The notes under the pieces were generated by a model, which saw nothing but the letters and a program-made list of their open reading frames with translations, ran no database searches and was not told the DNA's origin. From a virus: a stretch of 30,216 nt of DNA. The translations under genes were made by a program, and so were the position numbers. Numbering within the stretch: position 1 is the first letter of the stretch; every line of letters begins with the position of its first letter. Location: positions 1-30,216 of the IMG/VR virus record IMGVR_UViG_3300020129_000319. The stretch is one strand, 5' to 3'. This document shows positions 4,574 through 30,046 of this stretch, in pieces.

Positions 4574-4978
4574 GTGTCGATGAGCGGCTCGAGCTACTAC
4601 GCCGCGGGCGATCCCGCGCTGGGCGCCCAGCCACCAGCCACGCCGTGGCAGCAGATTGCCGCCAAAGGGGACACTGGACCGCAGGGGCCCACCGGTGCCA
4701 CAGGGGCCACGGGACCGCAGGGACCTGCTGGTGCGACGGGTGCCACCGGTCCACAGGGTCCAGCGGGGCCCACGGGCGCCACCGGGGCAGGCGTGGCCGT
4801 CGGCGGCACCACCGGCCAGATTCTGACCAAGATGAGCGCCACGGATTTCGCCACCAATTGGGCCGACCCGGCGGTCACCCTGGCGATGTTCAACGCCTTG
4901 CAGGCGCGGGTGGCCACGCTCGAGTCGCAGATCGCGGCGATGCCAAACTCGATCGAAGACCTGACGTACGCGGGGTAA
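4574..4978 (+). CDS. Collagen-like tail fibre, C-terminal part (same frame as 4232-4483)
   Basis: Open in the same frame from 4484; possible restarts are GTG 4574 or ATG 4580, neither with a good ribosome site. Before the restart the frame encodes [20 protein letters not shown], which leads into a WRGEW...YV.ND.VS.....YYA module like those found beside collagen stalks in phage fibres. A second GXY block follows (about residues 36-75), then [20 protein letters not shown], a common tail-fibre segment, and a terminal heptad-like helix ([20 protein letters not shown]). It is likely the distal part of one fibre broken by the TAA at 4481. Confidence 0.7.
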
Positions 4979-23525: not shown

Positions 23526-24311
23526 ATGGCGCGGTTGGACACCCACTGGCATGCGAATCCGAAGGTACTGGTGCTGGGGCTGGATGGTATGGGGCTGCAC
23601 TCGTGGAGCATCAGCTACTGCGACGCGGAATTGACCGATGGCTTCATTCCAGTGGGTGCATTGCCGCAGCTGCCGCGGTTGAAACAGGCGGTCAACCGGT
23701 TGGTGGAATGTGGTCGATGGGAGCGTGTTGAAGGTGGGTTCCAGTTGCACGACTACCTGCACTACAACCGCAGCCGGCACCAGGTCTTGACGGAGCGCGC
23801 GGCGGCCGCCGACCGTATGCAGCGTGCGCGCGAAGTTCGTGCGAACAACGGGCGAAGTTCGAGCGAAGTTCGGGCGAACGGTGCACAACCGGGCTTGGAC
23901 CCGGAAAATGCCGATTGTGACGCGGAAAATGCGATGGAAATCGCGTCACAGAACTCGAGTGAGCCCCTGTCAAAAGGCGTCACAACGGGGGTTCCTCGGA
24001 CGAGAACGATCGCATCTCACGACAACGACACCGTGTTCGCCCGAACTTCGGGCGAAGTTCAGCCGCTACCCGTTCCCGTTCCCGTTCCCGTTCCCGAACT
24101 TCCTACGGAAGTTCTGGGGGGATATCCCCCTACCCCCTTCGGGGAAAGTTCGGGCGAAGTTCGGACGAACGGCGTCGTGAAGCCGAGACCCCGTCGGACC
24201 AAACGCAAGGCTGAGCCGCCAGCCGGGGTCGCCTGTTGTCCCGATTTCGCCAGGACCGGTGCTGAGCACTGGGCGTACTGCCCCAACGCGCCAAAGGCGG
24301 AGTCAGCATGA
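23526..24311 (+). CDS. Replication initiator-like protein (winged-helix N-terminus)
   Basis: 261 aa from ATG 23526. Residues 1-95 (MARLDTHWHANPKVLVLGLD ... LHDYLHYNRSRHQVLTERAA) match the N-terminal domain seen in many phage replication-initiation/replisome-organiser proteins, with the YNRSR end motif. Residues about 100-240 are a flexible linker rich in Ser, Arg, Glu and Pro (VPVPVPVPVPE), whose DNA carries the iterons. The C-terminus has CCPDFARTGAEHWAYCPN, a possible zinc site. The protein probably binds the repeats and recruits host helicase; no helicase or polymerase is encoded in the window. Confidence 0.65.
   Translation: MARLDTHWHANPKVLVLGLDGMGLHSWSISYCDAELTDGFIPVGALPQLPRLKQAVNRLVECGRWERVEGGFQLHDYLHYNRSRHQVLTERAAAADRMQRAREVRANNGRSSSEVRANGAQPGLDPENADCDAENAMEIASQNSSEPLSKGVTTGVPRTRTIASHDNDTVFARTSGEVQPLPVPVPVPVPELPTEVLGGYPPTPFGESSGEVRTNGVVKPRPRRTKRKAEPPAGVACCPDFARTGAEHWAYCPNAPKAESA
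23830..23886. repeat. Iteron cluster 1, 11-bp unit GCGAAGTTCGN
   Basis: CGAAGTTCG occurs at 23831, 23853 and 23864, with degenerate units at 23842 (CGAACAACG) and 23875 (CGAACGGTG): a strict 11-base period, one helix turn. As 11 is not a multiple of three, the repetition is not forced by protein repeats. Candidate replication origin. Confidence 0.7.
24031..24176. repeat. Iteron and inverted-repeat cluster 2
   Basis: Contains CGAACTTCG/CGAAGTTC (24042, 24053; 8-base arms of a perfect inverted repeat), GAACTTCC-tac-GGAAGTTC (24096-24114), the palindrome GGGGGATATCCCCC (24117-24130), four tandem CCCGTT units (24069-24092), and GAAAGTTCG/CGAAGTTCG/CGAACGGCG at 24144, 24155, 24166 (again 11-base steps). 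Candidate second half of the origin. Confidence 0.7.
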
Positions 24312-24838
24312 GCGTCAACGATCTCGCAGGCACCATCTGGGGTTACGCGGCCGGCTGCACGCCCATTGAGGACGCTCACCCGTTCATCGACGACCTACGC
24401 TTCGACTCGCCTCTCGAGCAGCGCTTCGCGTGGTTAGCGCAGAAGTATTTCCGACACCACGAACTGCGGTCGCAAGTCCCCGCGGGCCGATTCCGCCTCG
24501 ACTTTGTGTTCGATGACGTCGCTTTTGAGTGCGATGGATTCTGGTTCCATTCGTCGCCCAGACAGCGACGTCACGATGACGAGCGCGATCAGGCCATTCT
24601 GACCAGTGGGGTCGTGACCACGATCTATCGCATCCCGGGGCGCATCTTGCACGGTTGGCCAGGTCCAACATTCGCGACGTTCGCTGAGTCGGACCCAGGC
24701 CTGTTCAGTGACCGCGGCTTGATCAATCTTGAGCATCATGCGCAGCACACAGGTGGCTTAGGCATTGTTCGCAAGTCACGCGTTCCGTCCGATCACGGCA
24801 TCGCTCGAACGTTGCGTTTGCAGGCCCTCCGCCCATGA
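24308..24838 (+). CDS. DUF559/Vsr-like PD-(D/E)XK nuclease (176 aa)
   Basis: ATG overlaps the initiator stop (ATGA). The core AGRFRLDFVFDDVAFECDGF places Asp65 and Glu74-Cys-Asp76 in the D...ExD arrangement of DUF559/very-short-patch-repair-like nucleases, followed by WFHSSPRQRRHDDERDQAIL (His81, basic/charged helix) and TTIYRIPGRIL. These are nicking or end-processing nucleases, often beside recombination or methylase genes. Here it follows the initiator; function in repair or recombination is inferred. Confidence 0.75.
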   Translation: MSVNDLAGTIWGYAAGCTPIEDAHPFIDDLRFDSPLEQRFAWLAQKYFRHHELRSQVPAGRFRLDFVFDDVAFECDGFWFHSSPRQRRHDDERDQAILTSGVVTTIYRIPGRILHGWPGPTFATFAESDPGLFSDRGLINLEHHAQHTGGLGIVRKSRVPSDHGIARTLRLQALRP

Positions 24839-25550: not shown

Positions 25551-25982
25551 ATGCCGCGTGGCGTTGCGCACCCGCCCGAGCTCCGCGCCCAGGTCGTCGC
25601 CGCCGTCCTGGCCGGGACGTCCGTCGCCCAGGCCGCGGCGCAATTCGGACTCGACAAGGGACTCGTGTCTCGATGGGTCGCCGCGAACCCGTTGCAACCG
25701 GTTGCAACCGACCAACGCACGCGCGCAGAGGAGCTCGGTGACCACATACTCGCGCTCATCGACCAGCACGTCGTCACGATTAGTGCCCAGCTATCGTTCG
25801 CAACTCGCACGGAGTGGCTTGAAAAACAATCCGCTGCCGAGCTTGCCCAGCTGGTTGCCGTTGAGCGGGATACCGCGCTTCGACTTCTCGCCGGACTCGA
25901 GCACATCGACGGGACAGGGCAACCCGAACTCCCCGCTGCCCCTGCCGACGCCGCACCCGGCGCAGCAGACGATGATCGCTGA
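25551..25982 (+). CDS. Terminase small subunit-like HTH protein (143 aa)
   Basis: The N-terminal domain (PPELRAQVVAAVLAGTSVAQ, then AAAQFGLDKGLVSRWVA) is a homeodomain-like helix-turn-helix as in small terminases, which select the packaging site. A helical middle (EELGDHILALIDQHVVTISA) would allow ring oligomers. Position immediately before the large terminase supports this. It shares its last 11 bases with the ATG-started large subunit. Confidence 0.7.
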   Translation: MPRGVAHPPELRAQVVAAVLAGTSVAQAAAQFGLDKGLVSRWVAANPLQPVATDQRTRAEELGDHILALIDQHVVTISAQLSFATRTEWLEKQSAAELAQLVAVERDTALRLLAGLEHIDGTGQPELPAAPADAAPGAADDDR

Positions 25983-27171
25983 GGCGGCCCGCTTCAACGT
26001 CGCCGCCTGCGGTCGCCAGATCGGCAAGACCACCCTCGGCATCGACCGCCTCGCCCGCGCCGCCGCCGACGGCCAACCCACGGCGTGGTTCGCGCCGACG
26101 TACAAGTACCTCGAGCAGGTGTGGCGCGCGCTGCGTACCGCCCTCGAGCCGGTGACCACCGGCAAATCGGAGCAGCAGCACCACCTCGACCTGCGCGGCG
26201 GCGGCAGCGTCGACTGCTGGTCGCTCGACGACGAGGACGCCGGCCGCGGGCGGCGCTACGGGCTGATCGTCGTCGACGAGGCGGCCATGGTGCGCAACCT
26301 GGAGGACGTCTGGCAGGCCAGCCTGCGGCCCACGCTGAGCGTGCTCGAGGGCGGCGCGTGGTTCCTGTCCACGCCCAAGGGCCTCAACTTCTTCCACCGC
26401 CTGTACCAGCTCGGCCAGGACGAATTGGAGCCGGAGTGGCGCTCGTGGCAGATGCCGTCCTCGGCGTCGCCGTACATCAAGCCCGAGGAGCTCGAGGCGG
26501 CGCGCCGGGCCATGCCGGAGCGCGTCTACGCCCAGGAGTTCCTGGCCCAGTTCCTGGAGGTCGAGGGCTCGGGCGTTTTTCGGGGCGTGCAGGCCGCGGC
26601 GCGGCTCGAGCCCATCGGACCGCAGCGCGGACACACGTACACCGTGGGCTGCGACTGGGCCCGCTCGAATGACTTCACGGTGTTCAGCGTGCTCGACGCC
26701 AGCACGTACGAGCAGGTGGCCATGGACCGCTTCACGCAGATCGACTTCGAGTTCCAGACCGAGCGCTTGCACCGCTGGGCCGACCTGTACAAGCCGCGCG
26801 TCATCCTGGCCGAGGCCAACGCGCTGGGCCAGCCGCTGGTTGAGCGCCTGCAGCAGGGCTACGGCCGCCTGTACGGCGACTCGCGGCGTGCGCTGCCGAT
26901 CCAGGCGTGGTGGTCGACCAACGCGACGAAGGCCGCGGTGGTCCAGAGTTTGAGCGTGGCCATCGAGGACGGCAGCCTGAGCCTGCTGGACGACGCGGTG
27001 CAGACCAGCGAGCTGCAGGCGTACGAGGTGGAGCGGTTACCCAGCGGCATGCTGCGCTACGGCGCGCCGTCTGGGCAGCACGACGACACGGTGATGGCGC
27101 TGGCGCTCGCGTGGGCCGCGGCGAGCGTCGAGACCCAGACCACGCGCTCAAGCTATGCGTTCAGCCGCTAG
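25972..27171 (+). CDS. terL: Terminase large subunit (ATPase and nuclease)
   Basis: 399 aa from ATG 25972. Walker A is ACGRQIGKTT at 12-21; Walker B is LIVVDEAAMV with Asp102 and Glu103; a coupling segment FLSTPKGLNFF follows. The nuclease domain has GCDWARSNDFTVF (Asp), VILAEANALGQPLVERL (Glu) and HDDTVMALALAW (Asp), the RNase H-like triad. It packages the genome into the procapsid and cuts it. The upstream frame still encodes PLPTPHPAQQ, a motif usually inside terminases, so the true start may lie upstream, e.g. a TTG within the small-subunit gene. Confidence 0.9.
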   Translation: MIAEAARFNVAACGRQIGKTTLGIDRLARAAADGQPTAWFAPTYKYLEQVWRALRTALEPVTTGKSEQQHHLDLRGGGSVDCWSLDDEDAGRGRRYGLIVVDEAAMVRNLEDVWQASLRPTLSVLEGGAWFLSTPKGLNFFHRLYQLGQDELEPEWRSWQMPSSASPYIKPEELEAARRAMPERVYAQEFLAQFLEVEGSGVFRGVQAAARLEPIGPQRGHTYTVGCDWARSNDFTVFSVLDASTYEQVAMDRFTQIDFEFQTERLHRWADLYKPRVILAEANALGQPLVERLQQGYGRLYGDSRRALPIQAWWSTNATKAAVVQSLSVAIEDGSLSLLDDAVQTSELQAYEVERLPSGMLRYGAPSGQHDDTVMALALAWAAASVETQTTRSSYAFSR

Positions 27172-27380
27172 TTCTGGAGCCGGCGGTAGAAGCGTCGCAG
27201 CCAGAAGCCGAGGATCACCGCGGCGGACACGCCCAGCACGATGATGGCGTACAGCAGCACGGGATTGATCTGACGGTCGCTGGCGGTGGCCATGAGCCAC
27301 AAGAAGCCCGCCACGAACGCGGCGAAGCCGATCAGCCAGATCAAAACGTTCTTGAAGAGCCAGTACGCTAGCGGCAGCAT
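27168..27380 (-). CDS. Small membrane protein (70 aa)
   Basis: Two hydrophobic helices (WLFKNVLIWLIGFAAFVAGF, and LLYAIIVLGVSAAVILGFWL) separated by a short polar loop, with a basic end (RRFYRRLQN). It converges on the terminase end with a 4-base overlap. It is part of a three-gene reverse-strand islet between terminase and portal, perhaps lysogenic-conversion genes. Function unknown. Confidence 0.6.
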   Translation of the reverse strand: MLPLAYWLFKNVLIWLIGFAAFVAGFLWLMATASDRQINPVLLYAIIVLGVSAAVILGFWLRRFYRRLQN

Positions 27381-27389
27381 GCCGACTGC

Positions 27390-27677
27390 TCAGTTGTCGA
27401 GGTAGATCACCGACGGCGTATTTACCGACGTACCGATGCGGTTGCCGCTCGTGTCGTAGTGGGTCGTGGTCGTTGGCACGTCGTTGTGCGTGCTCCCGTC
27501 GAGATAGATCACCGATGGGGTCGTGACGCTCGTGCCGATCTGGCGGCCGTACTGGTCGTAGTCGATGGAGGTGGTGCTCGGCTGGACGAGCGTGTCGGCG
27601 CTGGCCGCAGCTGGTCCTGCGAGCGTGGCGATGAGCGCGAGTCCGGCGAAGACTACGCGGTAGGATCGAATGTGCAT
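27390..27677 (-). CDS. Secreted protein with two tandem repeats (95 aa)
   Basis: A signal peptide is clear: MHIRSYRVVFAGLALIATLA then GPAAASADT (AxA cleavage site near residue 25). The mature part consists of two near-identical units, each with YD..G..IGTSV.TPSVIYLD (about residues 38-62 and 71-94). The ribosome site is GAAGGAG, nine bases before the ATG. Such short exported repeat proteins may bind the cell surface. It is on the opposite strand to the packaging genes, which suggests separate, perhaps lysogenic, expression. No family recognised. Confidence 0.65.
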   Translation of the reverse strand: MHIRSYRVVFAGLALIATLAGPAAASADTLVQPSTTSIDYDQYGRQIGTSVTTPSVIYLDGSTHNDVPTTTTHYDTSGNRIGTSVNTPSVIYLDN

Positions 27678-27710
27678 GGCGAAGTGACTCCTTCGTTGTG
27701 CGCGGTGACT

Positions 27711-27729
27711 CGGCCCCTAGGGTGGGCCG
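27711..27729 (-). terminator. Hairpin between reverse-strand genes
   Basis: CGGCCC (27711-27716) pairs with GGGCCG (27724-27729). It lies between the 84-aa gene and the secreted-protein gene. A TATAGT -10-like hexamer sits just upstream on the reverse strand (27738-27743), so it may act in the leader of the latter. Confidence 0.3.
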
Positions 27730-27748
27730 GGTCGCCAACTATACCGGC

Positions 27749-28003
27749 TCAGGTGGTTGAGCTGGTGTCTTTGCTCGACGTGGAACCGGTTGAGCTCGAC
27801 CTGGTCGACGTGGCCGGCTTGGGTTCGGCGGGTGCCGGCGCGGTGCCGCCGACGCGCTGCGCCTGGGCGATGCGCTCCTGGTCGACCGCCTCGCGATCGG
27901 CCTGCGCCTCTTCGGCGGTGCGCGGCACGCCTGCCATCCGCGCCATGGCGTCCTCGGGAGACTGCACCCGCTTCTCGGGCGCTGGCTGCTGGGGGGTGGT
28001 CAT
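27749..28003 (-). CDS. Low-complexity acidic/helical protein (84 aa)
   Basis: Start at ATG 28003; a longer form from ATG 28042 would begin in the inverted repeat. The sequence begins MTTPQQPAPEKRVQSPEDAM, continues with a charged helix (AEEAQADREAVDQERIAQAQ) and ends in Thr/Ser-rich disordered sequence. It diverges from the portal gene. No family recognised. Confidence 0.5.
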   Translation of the reverse strand: MTTPQQPAPEKRVQSPEDAMARMAGVPRTAEEAQADREAVDQERIAQAQRVGGTAPAPAEPKPATSTRSSSTGSTSSKDTSSTT

Positions 28004-28031
28004 GCCGGGTAGTGTGCACCTTGCGGGCCAA

Positions 28032-28055
28032 CCGTGAAACATCCATGTTTCACGG
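28032..28055. repeat. 24-bp perfect inverted repeat with parS-like half-sites
   Basis: CCGTGAAACAT and ATGTTTCACGG are perfect 11-base arms around CC, in the gap between divergent genes. GTGAAACA and TGTTTCAC are exactly the two half-sites of chromosomal parS, but in reverse order (outward rather than inward). Confidence 0.85.
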
Positions 28056-28064
28056 CGTTACACT
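28035..28064 (+). promoter_or_regulatory. Candidate promoter of the portal/head operon
   Basis: TGAAAC (28035-28040) and TACACT (28059-28064) are 18 bases apart, just upstream of the portal start. The -35 region lies in the inverted repeat, which could be an operator. The -35 match is weak. Confidence 0.35.
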
Positions 28065-28078
28065 CACGCGCGTAGGCT

Positions 28079-30046
28079 GTGGCTGACCGACCACCGAGCT
28101 CGCAGTACCTGAGCGAGCTCCAGGCGGAGATGTACGACCGCTACCGGCGCGACGACGTGCAGATCGACACGTACCGCGCGCAGCGGGAGATGCGCGTGCC
28201 GGCCATGCTCGGCGCCGACGACAAGTACACCCTGGTCAACGTCGACCCGCGCGATCCCGACGTCTCCGAGGAGGCGTTCCAGCAGACGGCGATGTTGACC
28301 CTCAACCGGCCGAAGCTGCACCTGGACGGCGGCGAAAGTGACACGGCGCAGACCGCGGCGTCTCAACGCGAGCACTGGACGGAGCAAACCCTGTGGGGTT
28401 GCGGCTCGAGGACGCCGGGCATGGAAACCATGACCTTTCTCACCGACGCCGCGCTCAATGATGGCGGCGCGTGGACCAAGATCCTGTTCCTGCCCGACGC
28501 GTGGGACAAGCGTTACGCCTACCCGCTCCCCAACCCTGGCGAGTCGGCCGACGCGTGGGACCACTATGACAAGGCCACCGAGGACGCCAAGAAGCAGTGC
28601 GGGCCACCCTTTGCCTGGGAGTTCGTCGACGCGCGCACGGTGTATCCCGACACGATGGGCGGCAGGATCGCCGAGGTGATCGAGATCACCGACCGTCCGG
28701 TGCGCACCACGTTCAGGCGCTACCGCCTGGGTGTGGACGAGGACGGCAACATCGTGCCCGAGGAGTGGGGCCAGGCGCAGCCATCCAACGCGTGGGGCGC
28801 CAACGGCAGACCGATCCTGCCCACGTCGATCACCATGCTCGAGCACTGGGATGAGCGCTGGGCCACCTGGTGCGTCACCGGAGAAAACTACAAGCGCCAG
28901 CCGACGGGCCACATCGTGAAGCAGTTCGAGCACGGCTACGGCTTCATCCCCTACGACTTCGCGCCCGGCCTGTGGATGAACCACTGGCGCAACCGCAAGG
29001 TGGGCTGGGGCGTGTCGCAGACGAAGCTCTGGCTGGTGCAGTACCGCCAGTATTTGCGCGCCATGCACGCCCAGTACGTTGCTCGAGACCTCCTCAGCCC
29101 GATGGTGACCTACGGCGATTCCACGGCAGCGCCGGTGATCGGTGACGACGGCAAGCCGCGCGACCGCGATCCGGGCCCATTGCCGGGCGAGGTGATCAAC
29201 CTCGGGCCAGGCCGCCAGATGCAGACGATCAAGTACCCCGACGCGGTCACGCTGGAAAAGCACATGCAGCTGATCGACAACGCCATCAAGGAGCTCGAGT
29301 CGCCGCGCGTCACCACCCTCAGCGGCATGGAGGGCGCCGGCTTCGCCATCAGCCAGGTGCTCAGCTACTCGAGGACGCGCGTCGGGCCAATCGTCAACAG
29401 CATCCAGGAGCTGCTCAAGCGCCAGACCGAAAAACTCTGGGACCTGGCGCAGAACAAGGTCCAGGAGAAGATCTGGGTCGGCTATAGCGGCAGTGACGCG
29501 AAGGGTGGCTCGGGCTACATCGGCCTGGGCCCCGACGACTTCGCGCGCCCGGTCAGGATCGCCTGGGACGTCCAGCAGGAGCTGCCCACCGACGACATGA
29601 TCAAGGCGCGCTACGCCCACGAGCGGCTGCAGGCCGGCACCTGGGGCAGCGACGAGGCGATCGAGTACCTCGGCGATAACCCCGACGAGATCCGGCGCAG
29701 CAAAGCGCGCGACCGGATTCGTCAAAGCCCCGAGTACCAGAAGTGGCTGGACAACCAGGTGTTTCAATTCGCGGGGCGAGGCGACATTCTCGGGGCGGCT
29801 GCCCAGGCGCAGGCACTGGCGGCCAAAGGTCAGCTACCAGGCTTGCCGGCGCCCGCGGGTCCGGGCGGCATGGCCACGCCGGCGCCAGGCGTGTTCGAGG
29901 GTGGCGGGCCGGGCGCGGGAGGCGTTCCCGATCTGGCAGCGCTGGCCACCGCGCCCGGCGGGGCCGGCGCGCTACCACCACCCGGCCCGCAGGTGATGGC
30001 CGGCGCGGCGCAGAATGTGGGCGCACCAGGTGCAGGAGGTATTTAG
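28079..30046 (+). CDS. Portal protein (655 aa)
   Basis: GTG start at 28079. An N-terminal helical/acidic region (SELQAEMYDRYRRDDVQIDT), a large alpha/beta stem-and-wing region with many Trp and Tyr (FEHGYGFIPYDFAPGLWMNH) and the late helices VTLSGMEGAGFAISQVLS-like in RVTTLSGMEGAGFAISQVLS then YSRTRVGPIVNSIQELLKRQ are typical of portal clip/crown segments. The C-terminus is Gly/Pro/Ala-rich and disordered. Size (655 aa), and place between terminase and scaffold/capsid, agree. Portals form the dodecameric DNA channel and docking site for the terminase. Confidence 0.85.
   Translation: MADRPPSSQYLSELQAEMYDRYRRDDVQIDTYRAQREMRVPAMLGADDKYTLVNVDPRDPDVSEEAFQQTAMLTLNRPKLHLDGGESDTAQTAASQREHWTEQTLWGCGSRTPGMETMTFLTDAALNDGGAWTKILFLPDAWDKRYAYPLPNPGESADAWDHYDKATEDAKKQCGPPFAWEFVDARTVYPDTMGGRIAEVIEITDRPVRTTFRRYRLGVDEDGNIVPEEWGQAQPSNAWGANGRPILPTSITMLEHWDERWATWCVTGENYKRQPTGHIVKQFEHGYGFIPYDFAPGLWMNHWRNRKVGWGVSQTKLWLVQYRQYLRAMHAQYVARDLLSPMVTYGDSTAAPVIGDDGKPRDRDPGPLPGEVINLGPGRQMQTIKYPDAVTLEKHMQLIDNAIKELESPRVTTLSGMEGAGFAISQVLSYSRTRVGPIVNSIQELLKRQTEKLWDLAQNKVQEKIWVGYSGSDAKGGSGYIGLGPDDFARPVRIAWDVQQELPTDDMIKARYAHERLQAGTWGSDEAIEYLGDNPDEIRRSKARDRIRQSPEYQKWLDNQVFQFAGRGDILGAAAQAQALAAKGQLPGLPAPAGPGGMATPAPGVFEGGGPGAGGVPDLAALATAPGGAGALPPPGPQVMAGAAQNVGAPGAGGI

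Follow-up and report, generated by a model that had tools for sequence, protein, structure and literature searches.

Introduction

Origins of replication that lie inside the gene of their own initiator are already a known kind, and in Firmicutes phages such as TP901-1 they are found inside the replisome-organiser genes. In iteron systems the initiator binds the repeats and an adjoining segment opens, which phage lambda accomplishes inside its O gene with an origin that comprises an AT-rich tract and four iterons, Stx phages having six (PMC7466680). For extrachromosomal mycobacterial prophages, the published account reports that a RepA-like initiator gene is necessary and sufficient for autonomous replication, presumes the cis-acting ori to lie within or beside repA, and describes RepA proteins of 320–350 amino acids with a predicted helix-turn-helix at residues 95–132, in phages carrying parABS (PMC7157519); that account is not known to describe an array of the type reported below. 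Our search of the open-access literature returned no description of a composite iteron, tandem and hairpin layout, and no paper with origin maps for phages of the initiator family treated here.

A first-pass annotation of a viral contig had pointed to 11-bp repeats and palindromes inside an initiator-like gene as a candidate replication origin, and had likened their layout to that of lambda O. We followed up this proposal by profile and structure searches, synonymous-codon shuffling and comparison with related phage loci, and conclude that the repeats most likely mark where this soil phage starts copying its DNA.

Results and Discussion

The window, by which we mean the whole stretch of DNA analysed, is an IMG/VR contig of 30,216 bp with a GC content of 66%. 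As read from the translations, terminase-like and portal-like genes occupy its right end (25558–30046) and scaffold-like and capsid-like genes its left end (1–2368), an arrangement that suggests a near-complete, circularly permuted genome; a repeat at the ends of the 30,216-bp record was looked for and not found. Collagen-like (GPQGP) repeats with a 36-bp period are seen at 4661–4788, in a probable structural gene. The phage is presumably of the integrating type because the record encodes a serine integrase (phrog_95). Host assignment by genome contigs gave candidate stretches, none of which was a relative.

The replication initiator gene (23526–24311, plus strand) lies downstream of RecT and a methylase/HNH-like gene, and encodes a protein of 261 amino acids with an N-terminal winged helix (residues ~11–81), a long helix and a disordered linker. 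Its product matches phrog_2447, 'replication initiation protein', at E = 1.8e-28 over residues 4–213 and phrog_3926 at E = 1.1e-14, so that the family match bears out the earlier wording 'initiator-like', and the phrog_2447 profile matches all 33 of 33 aligned relatives. A Pfam search with the protein gave no match, and a PDB fold search returned nothing at E < 0.001, the similarities being confined to a common winged-helix arrangement at Z below 8. AlphaFold2 models residues 11–110 confidently (block pLDDT 88–97) as the winged helix and the long helix that follows, and assigns low confidence to most of residues 121–240, which the repeat-bearing DNA encodes, although the block 181–190 scores better; the repeats fall in the DNA of a protein linker that is predicted to be disordered.

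Relatives of the initiator were found by tblastn in 258 phage records, all of them actinobacterial, with hosts in Mycobacterium, Gordonia, Arthrobacter, Streptomyces, Microbacterium and Propionibacterium, and several carry the annotation 'RepA-like replication initiator' or 'replication initiation protein'. Following the initiator gene, Phonegingi encodes a helicase loader and DnaB and Schmidt a helicase; TeardropMSU has DnaB downstream with one gene between. The gene immediately 3′ of the initiator in the window (24308–24838) has a weak match, short of the Pfam cut-off, to the restriction-type endonuclease domain MTES_1575 (E = 4.6e-5) and sits at the position where relatives carry helicase or loader genes.

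Repeat Elements within the Initiator Gene

The motif CGAASTTCG occurs five times in the record of 30,216 bases, each time within the initiator gene, in an 11-bp register. Exact copies of CGAAGTTCG start at 23831, 23853, 23864 and 24155 and the complement, CGAACTTCG, at 24042, with no further copies of either in the record, and a record-wide search with the 10-mer GCGAAGTTCG gave no extra sites. The left iteron array (23831–23885, plus strand) consists of five 11-bp units with the consensus CGAAGTTCGGG, two of which are degenerate (CGAACAACGGG at 23842 and CGAACGGTGCA at 23875), and the right array (24139–24172, plus strand) reads GAAAGTTCGGG / CGAAGTTCGGA / CGAACGG, with a degenerate unit, GAAAGTTCG, at 24144. 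TRF independently reports 11-bp arrays at 23830–23878 and 24138–24169, and lag-11 self-similarity over the whole record reaches its maximum at 23830–23837. The 'strict 11-base steps' of the first-pass annotation are borne out as a register, within which some units are degenerate.

An insert of ~145–150 bp (23890–24034), absent from the closest relative (L015), parts the two iteron clusters of the window. Repeats of GTGACGCG/CGCGTCAC are seen within it at 23915–23923, 23942–23950 and 23977–23985; this is the iteron word of other phages in the initiator family, and two iteron classes may have left traces in the window. Locus L029 likewise mixes words, GTAACGG with GTTCGCC.

Downstream of the insert lies the middle dyad, GTTCGCCCGAACTTCGGGCGAAGTTCAG (24035–24062, no strand), in which iteron half-sites face both ways (inverted repeats I12 and I15) and perfect 10-bp arms lie at 24036–24045 and 24047–24056. 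Between this dyad and the right array follow, in this order, the C-rich tandem, a hairpin and a palindrome. The tandem, (CCCGTT)4.7 by TRF (24069–24096, plus strand), contains at least four C3 runs, making it G-quadruplex-capable on the minus strand, and corresponds to the 5-nt tandem seen in relatives. Immediately 3′ of it stands the hairpin CCCGAACTTCC-TAC-GGAAGTTCTGGG (24093–24118, no strand), whose core GAACTTCC-TAC-GGAAGTTC at 24095–24113 forms a perfect 8-bp stem with a TAC loop and which also contains an iteron-like GAAGTTC; folded as single-strand DNA it reaches −9.4 kcal/mol (z −4.2), and shuffles were never as good. No T run was seen after it, and in the 20 bp 3′ of the tandem A or T occurs at only 11 of 20 positions. 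The palindrome GGGGGATATCCCCC spans 24117–24130 (no strand), at which position L015 has a related arrangement of G/C runs. The inverted repeats, the palindrome and the CCCGTT tandem described in the first-pass annotation are all recovered here.

Constraint at the DNA Level

As a model of chance we used 2,000 synonymous-codon shuffles of the 23526–24311 coding sequence. Five exact iteron copies are observed against a shuffle mean of 0.23 (maximum 2), and 12 copies with one mismatch against 2.0 (maximum 7); the lag-11 score is 25, compared with 17.6 in the shuffles (maximum 24), and the five 8-bp palindromes (0.33 expected) were equalled once in the 2,000 shuffles. The exact copies stand in two codon frames (0 and 2) and hence do not derive from a protein repeat. 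The claim that the 11-base period cannot come from protein repeats is upheld by these results, and a protein-repeat origin is rejected on the failure of the synonymous shuffles and on the occurrence of arrays outside open reading frames in relatives (see below).

The Array across Relatives

For comparison we assembled 80 loci with relatives from viral contigs and, in addition, a set of phage records; the statistics refer to 72 nonredundant loci. The DNA between the winged-helix domain and the C tract in these 72 loci shows self-similarity at lag 12 (z = 20.5), lag 24 (z = 11.2) and lag 11 (z = 8.7), with further excess at 22, 23, 33 and 36 bp and no excess at 3, 6 and 9 bp. The repeated words vary by phage (GTTCG/CGAAC, GTAAC/GTTAC, GTCAC/GTGAC, GTCCC/GGGAC, CAAGCA, GGCAAA and GGAACG) with similar geometry, and the order of elements is kept across the family: domain-coding DNA comes first, then the iterons, the short C-rich tandem and finally the AT-rich/hairpin element. 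When iteron class is compared with the recognition helix, covariation peaks at residues 48–55 and 80–99; this result was set aside because it is confounded by lineage, which the classes follow, and because the class calls are rough.

The tandem of CC(C) blocks 3′ of the iterons advances in steps of 5 nt in 171 of 259 cases and of 6 nt in 62 of 259, and the 5-nt step cannot be a repeat at the codon level since it is not a multiple of 3. At least five C blocks are present in 49 of the 72 loci, compared with 2.0 in shuffles, and four C3 runs in 54/72 (4.6 expected), against 0/72 on the other strand and 3.5% in other windows of the same loci. A G-quadruplex as a universal requirement is nevertheless rejected on the tandems of L035 (CCACT), L055, Sarge (CCAAGA) and Sonali (ACAG), which have no C3 runs, and the property common to all the tandems is therefore a short-period, C-bearing, G-poor strand. 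Excess of A and T 3′ of the tract amounts to +0.35 over the first 5 bp and falls to zero by ~30 bp, the first value being somewhat inflated, and later values less so, since whatever base ends a C run is by definition not C. Hairpins with a stem of at least 8 bp follow the tract in 15.5% (shuffles 0.6%, control windows 0%).

About a dozen relatives have a short open reading frame with the array past its stop codon. Post-stop repeats are present in L012, L016, L018, L039, L057, L075, L078, L092, L100, L104 and L107, and among named phages in Sarge, Liefie, Propionibacterium phage B3 and Sonali. No array was visible after the domain in L056, L059, L096, L103 and L108, and the C tract is missing from L088. 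One locus, L095, is a circular phage-plasmid of 86 kb from Saccharopolyspora pogona (NZ_CP031143.1); its initiator comes with GTCAC iterons, a tandem of CCCCT and a hairpin with a TAAC loop, and ParA and an integrase are encoded at other places in the record. Phage-plasmids proved uninformative as a test of replication, the S. pogona record being composite (ParA, integrase, plasmid-type genes) and a Streptomyces one having no array.

Searching viral contigs for the tandem CCCGACCCGACCCGACCCG alone gave at least 120 places. Among the matches listed with enough upstream DNA, 67 of 114 have this initiator domain 5′ of the tandem in the same orientation, mostly no more than ~110 nt away, and the opposite-strand and downstream controls gave 0/114 among the matches listed. 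The CCCGTT tandem, by comparison, is preceded by the initiator in only 9 of 72 places; being a general microsatellite of viral contigs, it was rejected as a diagnostic by itself. Its reverse complement, coding TGTGTG, lies inside other genes in L240, L258 and L308, and the genes of L240 and L308 resemble, by eye, initiator-type helix-turn-helix proteins; short tandems in the linker may occur in other initiator families too.

Origin Reading and Alternatives

The initiator family match, the helicase neighbours in relatives and the family-wide repeats that are independent of the protein all support the candidate origin put forward in the first-pass annotation, and we consider the segment at approximately 23830–24172 to be, very probably, the initiator-dependent replication origin of this phage, embedded in its own initiator gene. 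Here, the N-terminal winged-helix domain would bind the 11-bp iterons, at about one unit per helical turn and along one face of the DNA, and the bound initiator would assemble into a nucleoprotein complex. Such a complex could then open the adjoining segment, composed of the short-period C-rich tandem and the AT-rich/hairpin element, at which the replicative helicase would be loaded. Helicase or loader is encoded just downstream in several relatives; no helicase gene was recognised in the window, and that of the host is therefore presumed to serve this phage.

GC skew, suggested earlier as a marker of the site, gave no signal there, the lowest cumulative value over the record lying near 16 kb. 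This result counts against the origin reading, as do the few relatives that have no array or, in L088, no C tract, and the insert that parts the two iteron clusters of the window. A DnaA-dependent origin is rejected for the window: the record contains no exact DnaA box (TTRTNCACA) and one near match, at 23880. SOS/LexA boxes (CGAAC-N4-GTTCG) are likewise absent from the record. Exact DnaA boxes were seen in the array windows of L038, L075, L011 and L100, four in all, where the remainder of these loci would lead one to expect 0.33, and host DnaA may for that reason help in some members.

The repeats might instead be operators, bound by the winged-helix protein or by a phage repressor and controlling the gene or its operon, with replication starting elsewhere. 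Palindromic half-sites recognised by winged-helix proteins are typical of operators also, and autoregulation is compatible with origin function; we nonetheless hold an operator to be unlikely, as the array is located within the gene or 3′ of it, not at the promoter, the phased C-rich tandem and hairpin beside it have no obvious operator role, and the family is assigned to replication initiation, with some members preceding helicase genes. It is similarly improbable that only the iterons belong to an origin or operator and that the C-rich tandem and hairpin control transcription or translation in an early operon, as a G-quadruplex roadblock or attenuator. The quadruplex-capable strand in 54/72 loci and the hairpins that follow the tandem would suit such a role, but the hairpin of the window is not followed by a T run, tandems of some members have no C3 runs, and the position of the tandem is fixed relative to the iterons, which suggests a single composite element.

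Two other explanations carry very little weight with us. According to one, the array is a mere low-complexity linker (PVPVPVP, SSGEVR) with biased codons and the DNA itself is functionless, for which speak the mostly predicted disorder of the linker and the frequency elsewhere of CCCGTT tandems coding PVPVPV; against this, synonymous shuffles fail to produce the repeats, periods of 11 bp and 5 nt are not multiples of 3, and the array lies outside the reading frame in the dozen or so relatives described above. The other takes the array for a partition site (centromere) serving prophage maintenance. Centromeres are often iteron arrays, but a ParA/ParB-like gene was not noticed among the translated open reading frames, the serine integrase makes this presumably an integrating phage, and in the family the array goes together with the initiator gene, so that a partition site is highly improbable.

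Returning to the origin in the initiator gene, we put forward as a tentative generalisation, for which we would claim somewhat less than even chances, that actinophages share an undescribed origin architecture in which fast-changing 11–12 bp iterons stand beside a hairpin and a C-rich tandem of short period, mostly 5 nt. Often able to form a G-quadruplex on the opposite strand, this phased tandem might act as a single-strand platform for initiator or helicase and partly replace the AT-rich opening element in GC-rich genomes, and iteron divergence might make each replicon specific for its initiator. The layout, which BigPhil gene 68 also shows, recurs in most relatives among actinobacterial phages, including laboratory mycobacterium phages, and would predict the position of the origin from sequence alone for most of the phages in the 258 records. 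It also suggests an opening element that is GC-rich where such elements are usually AT-rich, and offers naturally diversified initiator/iteron pairs for specificity studies and compatible plasmids. Direct testing is feasible in M. smegmatis or Gordonia phages.

Comparison with Known Systems

Like the TP901-1 type, the initiator gene of the window holds its own putative origin repeats; the hosts differ, and the two are likened by layout only. With lambda O/ori it shares iterons placed midway in the initiator gene, beside which lies a candidate opening element, and differs in its 11-bp units, its short C-rich tandem and its hairpin, with only a short AT excess in the family. The likeness to lambda O drawn in the first-pass annotation thus fits as a working principle, that is, repeats inside the coding sequence of the initiator under constraint at the DNA level; neither Pfam nor PHROGs returned the lambda O family for the initiator protein at E up to 0.1, and we do not claim homology. 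The RepA prophages resemble the window in having an actinophage initiator gene with an origin presumed in or next to it, and, going by the published description, the RepA of Miko and Jeeves is set apart from the protein of the window, which has 261 amino acids, an N-terminal winged helix and an integrase phage as its source.

Closest are the phrog_2447 actinophage initiators (Phonegingi gene 42, Schmidt gene 46 and Liefie gene 45), which belong to the same family by PHROG profile. Iterons together with a short C-bearing tandem, placed where the winged-helix coding part ends or beyond it, serve as our criterion for the family, a description that comes from this analysis and not from published work, and both are present in the window. 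As in the window, the array of these actinophages lies in or after the initiator gene, and iteron sequence and tandem unit change from phage to phage.
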